From Paraburkholderia caffeinilytica (lineage in GTDB: Bacteria; Pseudomonadota; Gammaproteobacteria; Burkholderiales; Burkholderiaceae), in the NCBI RefSeq assembly GCF_003368325.1, contig NZ_CP031467.1:1178001-1242000 (forward strand): a stretch of 64,000 bases of DNA, written 5' to 3'. The notes below the pieces were generated by a model. It ran no database searches. It saw nothing but the letters and a program-made list of their open reading frames with translations, and was not told where the DNA came from. Within the stretch, counting starts at the first letter, position 1. Each line of letters opens with the position of its first letter. Of the stretch, positions 17,459-21,320 are shown in pieces. A program made the translations under genes and the position numbers.

Positions 17459-18639
17459 CGTTCAAGGATCAGGCTGACATTGCTGCCGCCGAACGCGAAA
17501 GAATTGCTCATCACGTACTGCGGTCCGGCGCCGCGCGGCAGAAAGCGCTCGCTTTCGACCAGATCCAGCACCGGCAAAGCAGGATCGGCGTCGCCGTCCC
17601 ACAGATGACGCGGCAGCGGCACGTCCTCTCGCGCCAGCGTGAGCCAAGCGAAAGCGAGCTCAGTCGCGCCCGCTGCGCCGAGTTGGTGGCCCGTCAGCGG
17701 CTTGGTGCCGCTCGTCGCCACGCCCTTGGGGAAGACACGCGCCATCAGCTTCGCTTCCATGTCGTCGTTCTTGCGGGTAGCGGTGGCATGCAGATTCACA
17801 TAGCCGATTGCCGACGGCGCGACGCCCGCATCGGCCAACGCCGCTCGCAGCGCGAGTTCGCCGCCCACACCGCGGGGGTCCGGCGAAGAAATATGATGTG
17901 CGTCGCTCGATTCGCCGACGCCCGCGAGTCTTACCGCGGCTTCGTCGCGGCTCATCAGGAACACGGCGGCGCCTTCGCCGACATTGATCCCGCAGCGATT
18001 GCGGCTCATCGGATTGGCGCGCACGCCGCTGGTCGATTCGAGCGAGGCGAAACCCTGCACGGTCAACTCGCACAGCGAATCGACGCCTCCGACCACCACC
18101 GCGTCGCACAGCCGTAATTGCAGCAAGCGGCGCGCGGACGCAAAGGCCTTCGCGCTCGACGTGCAAGCAGTCGAGATCGTGAACGCCGGGCCCTGCACGC
18201 CGAGCGCGGCGGCGGCAAATGGCGCGGCGGTACCGATCTCCATCTGCCGGTAATTGAAATTGGCGGGCAGGCCGCCCGCTTGCGCCTGATAGACGAACGC
18301 GGCTTCGGCCGCTTCGATACCCGACGTGCTGGTGCCGAGCACCACGCCGATCCGGTGCGCGCCGTAACGCTCGCGCGCCGCGTCGACCGTGGGTGCGATC
18401 TGCGTCAATGCGGCCAGCAGCAAGCGGTTATTGCGGCAGTCGTAACGCGCGAGCGCGGCCGGCGGCGCAAGATCGAGCGGCGCGAGCACGCTGCCGACAA
18501 AGGCTTCGCCGATGCCCGTATGTGCGTTCGCCATGCCGGGTGCGTGACCGGCGGCAAGCGCCGGGACGATTGCGTCGAGGTCGCCGCCGAGCGCATTGAT
18601 CATGCCGAGCGCGTGCAAATAAACTGATGGCGCCTTCAT
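17455..18639 (-). CDS. Beta-ketoacyl-ACP synthase (ApeO-like)
   Basis: 394 residues from the ATG at 18639 (ATGA overlap with the MMPL stop); the frame is open further upstream but only as antisense noise. C159 in STACTSS, H284 in NLHATAT and H318 in LTGHQLGAAG make up the triad. In known aryl polyene systems the ApeO ketosynthase pairs with the cysteine-less ApeC chain-length factor. The first gene of this operon is such a factor, so this is the best partner candidate. Confidence 0.92.
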   Translation of the reverse strand: MKAPSVYLHALGMINALGGDLDAIVPALAAGHAPGMANAHTGIGEAFVGSVLAPLDLAPPAALARYDCRNNRLLLAALTQIAPTVDAARERYGAHRIGVVLGTSTSGIEAAEAAFVYQAQAGGLPANFNYRQMEIGTAAPFAAAALGVQGPAFTISTACTSSAKAFASARRLLQLRLCDAVVVGGVDSLCELTVQGFASLESTSGVRANPMSRNRCGINVGEGAAVFLMSRDEAAVRLAGVGESSDAHHISSPDPRGVGGELALRAALADAGVAPSAIGYVNLHATATRKNDDMEAKLMARVFPKGVATSGTKPLTGHQLGAAGATELAFAWLTLAREDVPLPRHLWDGDADPALPVLDLVESERFLPRGAGPQYVMSNSFAFGGSNVSLILER

Positions 18640-21320
18640 GCGTCCCTCCTTGATTCCGATGGCATGCCGATCGGCGCGAGCAACACCGATACCGCAATGC
18701 CGAGCGCGAGCGTGGCGCCGAAACTCTTCAGCGCCGGCATCGCGCTCATGCCGAGCATGCCGAACGACAGCAGCGTGGTGGCCGCCGAGAGCAGCACGCC
18801 GGTCCACACCGCGCCGAGATCGGCGTCCGCGCGCAAGCAGCCTTCGCGCAGAAACACTGCATAGTTTGCGCCTACGCCGAGTACCAGCATCAGCGCAAGC
18901 CAGTTGAAAAGATTGAGCGGCACACGAGCGTAGCCGAACACGGCAAGCGTGACGCCGACCGCGAGCAGCACCGGCAGCGTCACGGCGATGCCGCCGCGCA
19001 CACGGCCTCCCAAGGAGACGTTCCGTGGGGCGCCCATCCATCCCCCGATCCTCCCGTCCCCCAATCTGCCGAGGGAACTTCCGTCGGGGTGGATGACTTC
19101 CTTCGAAGCAGGGGACTTCCTTTGGGGCGTGGGATTTCCTTCGGACCGAGGACCTTTATGGGAAGCGTAGCGCAGCATCAGCACGGCGAGCACGAGTGCA
19201 AGCGCACCGCTGAGCCACCAGCCGCTATCCACACGATACGCGCCAAACAGCTTCGAAACGCTCGCCGCCTTGTCGACGAATACGACGCCGGGCAGCGCCT
19301 GCGCGGTGGCGATGAGCGCGGGTTCGTTCTGTGGCGTCACGCCTTGTGGAATGACGACTGCCGCATACGCTTTGGCGGCCGAATCGACTTCGCCCAGCCA
19401 CAGATGCCTGTAGGGTTGCGACCACGGTGCGGCGAGCCAGGTGTCGACCGTGAGCAGCGGCTGCGGTTTCGCATACGCGGCGAGCCAGGCATCGGCGACT
19501 TCGTCTTTAAAGCCCGCCTGCAGCAGCGTCTCACGCAATGCTGCAGGATCGTTGAATACGTGCAGCGTGAGCAAGGCACGGTCTTCGTTTTGCTGTTTCG
19601 CGGACGGCACGAATTGCGCCACCGACTGATAGCTGCCGACCTTGTTCGCGGTACCGTTCAACCCGTCGAGTTTCACGCCCAGCGCTTCGGCGCGTTGCAG
19701 CACGATCTCCGGCGTCTCGCCACGCACCACAAAAAACTGTGCGCTGTTATCGACACCGACCGCCGCGCGCACCTTGTCTTCCTGCGCGACCAGCGAAGGA
19801 TCGCGCTGAATCAGCAGATGGATATCGTCGTCGCTCGTCAGACGCAACCAGCCGGGAATGGCCACGATCAGCAACAGCGCCGCAACCCGCCATGCACGCT
19901 TGCCGCCGATCGTGCGATGCCAGACCGTCAGCCCACGCGCGGCGCCGGCGAACAGGCGCTGCGGGCCGCGTTTCGGCGGGCGCGTAAGCAGCGCGGGCAA
20001 CAACCACAGCACGGAGGCATACGCCGTCACAATGCCCGCCATCGCGAAGCATGCAATCTGCTTGAGTGCGGGAAACGGCACCCACGTGAGGATCGCGTAG
20101 CCGAGCAGGCTGGTGGCAAGCGCAACCGTCAAGGCCGGGCGCACGGCGCGCGCGCCGCGGCGCGAATCCCAATCGCGCCCTGCGCCGAGATAGACCACGA
20201 AATACTGAATCGAATAGTCGACCGCTTCGCCGATCAGGCTTGCGCCGAACACCAGCGTCAACAGATGCAATTGACCGAACACCAGCATCGTCACCGCGAG
20301 CGCGCAGACGATGCCGAGCGCCGTCGAAACGAAACCGAGCAGCAACAGACGCGGCGAACGGAACACCCACATCATCAACAACGCAATCCCGCACAGCGAC
20401 GCGACGCCGATCAGATGCACCTCGTGTTCCGATGCGCTGCGTGCCGACTCCGCGTAGAACACCGCACCGGTTCTCGCCACCGACACGTCGGGGAACGCCT
20501 GCTTCAACGCGCTTTCGCCTTGCGTGAGCGCGGCGAGCACGGCGTGCTGCGTCTTCGATTCGTAGGCCGAGCCAGGCAGCGTGGCGACGATCAGCACGCT
20601 TGTCGCGGTGCCGCGATGCGACACCAGCATGTTGTCTTCGAGTTCGAGATTCGACGTGGCGAGCGGCAAGCCGCCGAGCCAGTGTTCGAGCCAGCCGAAC
20701 GGATCGTCGGCGAGCGGCGTGGTCAGGCCACCGCGCAACGGGCTGTAGATGCGCTGCGCGAGCGCGTCCCTCAATCCCCCAAGGGGACTTCCTTCCGGGC
20801 CGGCGACTTCATTCGCGGCGGGCGACTTCATTCGCGGCGGGCGACTTCCGTTGGAGCGGGCAACTTCCGTCGGGGCTTCGTGTACCGTAGGGTTTGCAGC
20901 ACTGCTCTGCGCGAGTGCCGCGCGGTCAACAGGCGTCAGCAAACCGAAGCGATACGGCATGTACAACGCCGCGATCTGCGACAGATCGAACGGCGGCAAT
21001 TCCGCCGTCACCGAGCCGAACGCCCCGCTCTTCTGCAACGATGCGCCCAATTGTTTCGCTGCCGCTTTCGCGTGCGCGTCGTCGTTGGCGGTCACCAGAA
21101 ACACCGTGCGATCGCCCAGCGCGCTCGCCAGTGTATCGACCGCCTTTTCGGCGACCGGATCCGCCTCGGTGGCAGGCAGCAACGCCAATAGATTGGTCTG
21201 CAACGGCGACGGTCCCGCGAAACGCCAGCCGCAATACAGCGCCGCGGCGAGCGCGAGCAGCAGCCACGCGGCGCGCATGCTCCACGCCTGTTTCGCAGAC
21301 CGCTGTTGCAGCACGTGCAT
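18636..21320 (-). CDS. MMPL/RND-family exporter with two repeat-encoded insertions
   Basis: 894 residues, an inner-membrane RND/MMPL transporter: one N-terminal helix, a periplasmic loop, then a block of helices including GEAVDYSIQYFVVY, repeated in the C-terminal half with GVGANYAVFL. It would move the finished aryl polyene lipid out of the inner membrane together with the LolA-like protein encoded just upstream. Residues of about 147-179 and 718-749 are encoded by 19-bp tandem repeats and read as Pro/Ser/Gly-rich inserts with a shared pattern (KSPA, EV, GS, LG, L, D). They make the protein longer than I expect for this family. Both tracts are in frame, so the gene looks functional. Confidence 0.9.
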   Translation of the reverse strand: MHVLQQRSAKQAWSMRAAWLLLALAAALYCGWRFAGPSPLQTNLLALLPATEADPVAEKAVDTLASALGDRTVFLVTANDDAHAKAAAKQLGASLQKSGAFGSVTAELPPFDLSQIAALYMPYRFGLLTPVDRAALAQSSAANPTVHEAPTEVARSNGSRPPRMKSPAANEVAGPEGSPLGGLRDALAQRIYSPLRGGLTTPLADDPFGWLEHWLGGLPLATSNLELEDNMLVSHRGTATSVLIVATLPGSAYESKTQHAVLAALTQGESALKQAFPDVSVARTGAVFYAESARSASEHEVHLIGVASLCGIALLMMWVFRSPRLLLLGFVSTALGIVCALAVTMLVFGQLHLLTLVFGASLIGEAVDYSIQYFVVYLGAGRDWDSRRGARAVRPALTVALATSLLGYAILTWVPFPALKQIACFAMAGIVTAYASVLWLLPALLTRPPKRGPQRLFAGAARGLTVWHRTIGGKRAWRVAALLLIVAIPGWLRLTSDDDIHLLIQRDPSLVAQEDKVRAAVGVDNSAQFFVVRGETPEIVLQRAEALGVKLDGLNGTANKVGSYQSVAQFVPSAKQQNEDRALLTLHVFNDPAALRETLLQAGFKDEVADAWLAAYAKPQPLLTVDTWLAAPWSQPYRHLWLGEVDSAAKAYAAVVIPQGVTPQNEPALIATAQALPGVVFVDKAASVSKLFGAYRVDSGWWLSGALALVLAVLMLRYASHKGPRSEGNPTPQRKSPASKEVIHPDGSSLGRLGDGRIGGWMGAPRNVSLGGRVRGGIAVTLPVLLAVGVTLAVFGYARVPLNLFNWLALMLVLGVGANYAVFLREGCLRADADLGAVWTGVLLSAATTLLSFGMLGMSAMPALKSFGATLALGIAVSVLLAPIGMPSESRRDA
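19077..19170. repeat. 19-bp tandem repeat tract A inside the MMPL exporter gene
   Basis: Five units begin at 19077, 19096, 19115, 19134 and 19152 (spacing 19, 19, 19, 18). Each starts with ACTTCC or a close variant, followed by TTCGGGGC-like sequence. The unit matches that of the second tract 1.6 kb away. The tract encodes residues of about 718-749, between two membrane helices of the C-terminal half. Because 19 is not a multiple of 3, each unit is read in a different frame, and only certain copy numbers keep the gene open. Confidence 0.85.
20787..20881. repeat. 19-bp tandem repeat tract B inside the MMPL exporter gene
   Basis: Exactly five 19-bp units begin at 20787, 20806, 20825, 20844 and 20863; units 2 and 3 are identical (ACTTCATTCGCGGCGGGCG). 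Both this tract and tract A are preceded by a CCCCCAA-containing flank. It encodes residues of about 147-179 in the first periplasmic loop. Confidence 0.88.

Follow-up and report, generated by a model that had tools for sequence, protein, structure and literature searches.

Very short dispersed repeats that lie also inside other repeats, and that have been proposed to be mobile, are represented by SDR5 of cyanobacteria (about 24 nt), and short non-autonomous elements with inverted ends, the miniature inverted-repeat transposable elements (MITEs), are usually much longer than 27 bp. Repetitive extragenic palindromic (REP) elements and REPINs are palindromes of 20-40 bp present in many copies (PMC3733652), and they are recognized by a constant GTAG or CGTC tag, a REP-associated tyrosine transposase (RAYT) gene and inverted doublets (PMC3733652, PMC3116915). 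Rickettsia palindromic elements (RPEs) are palindromic repeats of about 150 bp found in frame in unrelated protein genes of rickettsiae (PMC10969869). Here we analyze a 64,000-nucleotide stretch of the Paraburkholderia caffeinilytica genome (contig NZ_CP031467.1, positions 1,178,001 to 1,242,000; hereafter the window), in which the gene of an MMPL-family exporter carries two repeat tracts, termed sites A and B. The initial annotation of the window had read these tracts as two invasions of one 19-bp minisatellite, both flanked by CCCCCAA, by which the exporter could be phase variable. We consider it probable that both derive from copies of a dispersed palindromic element of 27 bp, nested by insertion.

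The element is a 27-bp imperfect palindrome, T-CCCCCAAGGGGACTTCCTTCGGGGC-G. When it is written as T, a 25-bp body and G, the tandem 19-mers of the tracts correspond to its right part and their CCCCCAAT leader to its left part (8 + 19 = 27). The 19-bp spacing is seen in nine overlapping copies of the unit, grouped in two clusters. With up to three mismatches allowed, the unit is matched five times where chance would give 0.06, and four of these matches fall in the second tract. Tandem Repeats Finder at a score of 30 detected the second tract alone. The first tract (site B) is more degenerate than the second (site A), with 9-17 of 19 bases identical to the consensus in its units as against 14-16, and units compared across the tracts share a mean of 12.1 of 19 bases. 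Two related tracts with a common unit and a 19-bp spacing thus exist, as initially described, but their basic unit is 27 bp and not 19 bp, and the bounds first assigned to them (19077-19170 and 20787-20881) are too short in comparison with empty orthologues (Table 1). Each tract as first delimited comprises the right 19-bp pieces together with part of a 27-bp copy (the inner one at site B). Parsing site B as 27 + 4 x 8 + 27 + 4 x 19 fits 121 of its 162 bases. The alternatives score lower, with 99 for a (5,5) parse, 71 for the best of 5000 shuffles and 64 for six tandem 27-mers; site A parses as 8 + 27 + 4 x 19. That the reading frame is kept across both inserts, as the initial annotation had stated, is borne out.

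Alignment of orthologues, which the initial annotation had proposed, shows that the insert is not fixed. In a sample of one genome per species, 96 loci encode a relative of the exporter, and the best 80 of these were used, making 81 genes with that of the window. The first stop lies 772-893 codons past the match start in the 80 orthologues (the window gene has 894 codons), both flanks of both sites align in all 81 genes and every gene is open through sites A and B. Site B is empty in 57 of the 81 and carries extra sequence in 24, the window included, at lengths of 15, 27 (five genes), 54 (nine), 63, 72, 81, 120, 135, 162 (the window), 216 (two) and 234 bp. Nineteen of these 24 lengths are multiples of 27, where one in nine multiples of three would be expected (binomial 1.8e-14 under independence of the genes, which does not hold). 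Many copies at site B are strongly diverged, the best 27-mer differing from the consensus at 0-15 positions. Element-like inserts at site A are present in the window and in two orthologues (L014 and L016); two more (L022 and L039) match the element weakly there. No insert is present at either site in the sister group of the window gene (L017, L019, L020 and L059; support 88, not starred), and the tree requires a minimum of seven changes of filled state and 16 of length at site B, and five at site A. In two other species (L021 and L046) the site A loop holds unrelated Ser-Gly and Pro-Thr repeat expansions.

The suggestion of a mobile repeat, also made in the initial annotation, is supported by the presence of the element at unrelated loci of many genomes and by empty sites that are shorter by exactly 27 bp. 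At up to two mismatches, the 25-bp body is found in 76 of 144 genomes of the genus with no control match in any row, reaching its highest copy number of 77 (37 + 40) in genome G120, and a tandem pair of 19-mers at up to one mismatch is found in 17 of the 144; the unit is thus present in related genomes, where the initial annotation had proposed to look for it. At the family level the element occurs in 94 of 398 genomes and in eight of 25 genera, with zero control matches, and strong short matches were also obtained in two other families of the same order. Of 229 genomes drawn across the class, the window's own is the sole one with a match at up to one mismatch; only two of the 228 others belong to the same order. 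Viral carriage of the element was rejected, as the exact 25-mer had no match among the viral contigs searched. The genome of the window is itself poor in the element, with three bodies at up to two mismatches and 15 matches of a 21-mer at up to three. The claim that the unit occurs nowhere else is true of the 64-kb window by unit pattern and false for the genome, which has an exact 25-bp body at C2:1046015 and diverged bodies elsewhere; by eye, the sequence at C2:3991209 resembles a nested copy. A text search of 5.39 million papers, whose coverage leaves out most subscription journals, found no match to the element strings, and among the papers listed on Burkholderia repeats the element is absent from titles and abstract openings. 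One locus of another genome (L341, G419) carries a head-to-tail array of six or more 27-bp copies. At five loci (L185-L189, genomes G038 and G041) copies lie in the loop of a longer palindrome, for example CCTACTTTTCTTTG...CAAAGAAAAGTAGG, and two such palindrome units, separated by about 430-590 bp, face one another in the manner of a larger intergenic repeat.

Comparison of filled with empty sites gives the insertion unit. The purL gene is filled in one genome (G120), and all 23 in-genus relatives aligned show a 27-bp gap there; purL was matched in 37 of 40 genomes, the more distant of which were left out of the alignment. Two IS6 transposase genes (L224 versus H14 and H15; L244 versus H24) and one IS3 transposase gene (L158 versus H5 and H11) likewise differ from plasmid-borne relatives by exactly 27 bp, and among the rows listed in three sets of plasmid matches without the element, 7 of 9, 7 of 10 and 9 of 10 are exactly 27 bp shorter. 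Junctions were tabulated for 42 solitary copies, a set that omits copies in the CTTTCTTTG palindrome, before GAAAA or beside another copy. The last base is G in 41 of them and the first is T in 33, and the left and right junction bases are purine and pyrimidine in 33 (GT 19, GC 8, AT 6; others 9). A 2-bp GT target duplication is possible, and in purL and the IS3 gene the G preceding the T is already present in empty relatives; the element's own T and G ends appear to fit better, since L244 has A and T at the junction in its empty relative, which speaks against target duplication. Equal two-base flanks were seen in 17 of the 42 copies, where 13 are expected. Pfam assigns a family to eight of ten open frames examined around G120 copies (OEP, GATase_5 with AIRS_C, sigma-54 activator, TssG, A2M, IS240-type DDE, ABC transporter and NAD_binding_2); each was taken as the longest stop-free frame, so that some copies (for example, L216) may precede the true start. 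Open frames surround the copies in the sigma-54 regulator and TssG reading frames, as seen in the filled state.

The element resembles RPEs in lying in frame in unrelated genes (the exporter, purL and the three transposases), and differs from them in its length of 27 bp, its Burkholderiaceae and Burkholderiales hosts and its nests. Three inverted pairs of copies 65-66 bp apart in another genus (L338, L339 and L340) recall REP doublets. Unlike REP elements, the copies lie in genes and have no constant tag, the left end of the solitary copies being CGTC in nine, TGTC in seven and other tetramers in fewer, and the right end being GTAG in four. None of the 144 genus genomes has a RAYT above the NF047646 cut-off, weaker matches being found in 143, and none of 38 Y1 loci checked (the 30 best-scoring and eight chosen) has a copy of the element within about 1 kb. 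A RAYT as mover is therefore unsupported, because Y1-like genes occur in 143 of the 144 genomes whatever the copy number of the element and no copy accompanies the 38 loci. The likeness to SDR5, which belongs to a different phylum, is one of description. The ends look inverted by eye (8 of 9 bp match), a trait also of MITEs; a partner transposon and a clear target duplication were not found in the solitary copies, the empty sites or the Y1 loci.

Nesting of the element into its own copies is the likely source of the composite tracts, as judged from the pairing of their pieces. The tracts were tabulated after merging those with flanks differing at up to 7 of 30 bases and dropping cores with more than three mismatches, by which site B of the window is lost and site A is retained as L001. 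Of 40 tracts with 19-mers, 33 also contain 8-mers, compared with one of the 73 lacking 19-mers (36 of 42 and 4 of 75 under a looser 8-mer rule). Writing n8 and n19 for the numbers of the two pieces, the 113 distinct tracts have equal counts in 97, comprising 72 of (0,0), 22 of (1,1) and three of (2,2). Of the 41 tracts with any piece, 25 have equal counts, against a shuffled mean of 7.5 and a maximum of 16 in 10,000 shuffles. Many tracts were retrieved through their 19-mers and none through their 8-mers, and in 11 nests found independently of the 19-mer search both pieces are present. The term minisatellite is thus mostly not borne out, as the 19-mers pair with 8-mers as the halves of a split 27-mer.

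Several observations weigh against this interpretation. Movement has not been observed and a mobilizing enzyme was not found; an exceptional stability of the hairpin was sought and not seen (z -0.85 and -1.60), and six open frames are shared by 33% of shuffled 27-mers and hence unremarkable. In G120, one variant (CCACCAAGTGG, for example in L227-L240), whose first stem is changed on both sides from CCCC/GGGG to CCAC/GTGG, makes up 31 of the 81 listed matches at up to three mismatches; it lies inside a longer repeated palindrome in 12 of 12 of the copies listed, and these copies may have spread together with that repeat. The quick exporter tree cannot separate gain from loss, and the outermost pieces of site B fit poorly. 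The 8-mer and 19-mer counts are unequal in 16 of the 41 tracts with pieces, and the (1,4) of window site A, (4,1) and (0,3) are unexplained by plain nesting. A younger age of inner copies could not be established from divergence, the inner 7-mers being lower than the outer in 12, higher in eight and equal in 14 of 34 comparisons. A T>G change at one position marks the outermost 19-mers in 15 of 36 nests and the inner cores in three (four outer and two inner in the 11 nests from other searches), and it was dropped as evidence of age because most of these nests came from a search that required T in the inner unit.

An unlikely alternative is that the 8-bp and 19-bp parts were duplicated in tandem independently, and are paired merely because 8 + 19 = 27 restores the frame. 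In its favor, n8 equals n19 modulo 3 in 28 of the 41 tracts, the three combinations just named included, as selection for frame alone would produce, and site A appears to need something besides nesting for three of its 19-mers (57 bp, in frame), for example a 19-bp duplication or a loss of 8-mers. Against it, 13 of the 41 tracts violate the modulo-3 rule, the inner 19-mer is identical to the outermost in just four of 36, and the pairing is seen also before terminator-like, presumably noncoding sequence, where four of seven tracts are (1,1), some of them perhaps orthologous. It is also rather improbable that a 54-bp dimer (8 + 27 + 19), nested once, spreads as a unit and that the (1,1) tracts are its copies; no other composite is as frequent as (1,1), with 22 of 41, and the recurrence of the same T>G in outer pieces agrees with such a unit, but the (2,2) tracts, or the (4,4) of site B, would still require further nesting.

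A minisatellite in which slipped pairing adds and removes 19-bp units and switches the exporter on and off, giving the phase variation proposed initially, is very improbable. Site A leaves some room for it, since two of its adjacent units are identical, its perfect period-19 run extends over 28 positions and a change of one unit would shift the frame. With tract ends a few bases off the final bounds, reading off frame after A leads to a stop at the tract end or about 341 codons later, and after B to a stop about nine codons on in one frame and to none within the gene in the other. Neighboring units of site B, on the other hand, share just 8-14 of 19 bases with a longest perfect run of nine, and the case for phase variation is undermined because the usual length step is 27 bp, or nine codons, and all 81 genes are open despite at least 16 length changes at site B. 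It is highly unlikely that copies were spread by homologous recombination, or by horizontal transfer of the DNA around them, and not by insertion. Although the same two exporter sites are filled in several lineages and some copies are carried within a longer palindrome, the loci are otherwise unrelated and both flanks resemble the host (purL and the transposases).

Returning to nested insertion of the 27-bp element, we propose that a new copy would add exactly 27 bp, mostly between a purine and a pyrimidine and commonly between G and T. All six frames are free of stops in the element, in a head-to-tail tandem of it and in the 8 + 27 + 19 nest, and because of this and of its 27-bp length a copy entering a gene would, whatever its orientation or frame, add nine codons without disrupting the reading. 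Older copies could themselves serve as targets, with the entry point between CCCCCAA and GGGG, and the inserted copy would then lie between an 8-bp and a 19-bp half of the older one. We infer that nests arose by one copy inserting into another in this manner; repeated insertion would give a tract of the kind initially taken for a minisatellite of 19 bp flanked by CCCCCAA, and site B would represent a solitary copy beside an inner copy enclosed by four rounds of nesting. Selection presumably retains copies in tolerant loops. As to the means of movement, we can only guess at a hairpin-based, single-strand process.

The host gene is an MMPL gene as initially annotated, its protein matching PF03176 with an E-value of 2.5e-15. 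Its neighbors encode a ketosynthase, a LolA-like protein, a thioesterase and an aromatic ammonia-lyase, a neighborhood which we take to be compatible with an aryl polyene pigment cluster. The window also contains the Burkholderia small RNA ncS025 (RF02869; 43774-43858) and four tRNA genes (starts 36745, 46155, 46321 and 54532).

Table 1. Exporter gene and the parts of its two inserts, in window coordinates
Feature	Position	Strand	Description
MMPL-family exporter gene	18636-21320	minus	894 aa; hosts inserts A and B
Insert, site B	19006-19167	+	162 bp (6 x 27), with a hydrophobic segment on either side; bounds from empty orthologues
Site B, solitary 27-bp copy	19006-19032	+	8/27 mismatches
Site B, four left 8-bp pieces	19033-19064	+	4, 1, 3 and 0 mismatches/8 to TCCCCCAA, outermost first
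Site B, innermost 27-bp copy	19065-19091	+	6/27 mismatches
Site B, four right 19-bp pieces	19092-19167	+	5, 1, 4 and 9 mismatches/19, innermost first
Insert, site A	20767-20877	+	111 bp, in a length-variable protein stretch; bounds from empty orthologues
Site A, single left 8-bp piece	20767-20774	+	1 mismatch
Site A, 27-bp copy	20775-20801	+	2/27 mismatches
Site A, four right 19-bp pieces	20802-20877	+	3, 3, 4 and 4 mismatches/19; first two identical

More broadly, and tentatively, with the balance still tilted against it, this 27-bp hairpin might rank among the shortest mobile elements known and be neutral to the frame whatever the gene, orientation or phase, and its targeting of its own copies might build nests that become new low-complexity loops in proteins. 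If so, a 27-bp element would be spreading in genes, even in purL and transposases, and leaving them intact, and one class of what look like minisatellites in coding sequence would consist of nested insertions. It would also caution against deducing phase variation from a unit length that is not divisible by three. With its filled and empty sites and its depth of nesting, the element would offer a countable system for the movement of short sequences and the gain of loops in proteins.

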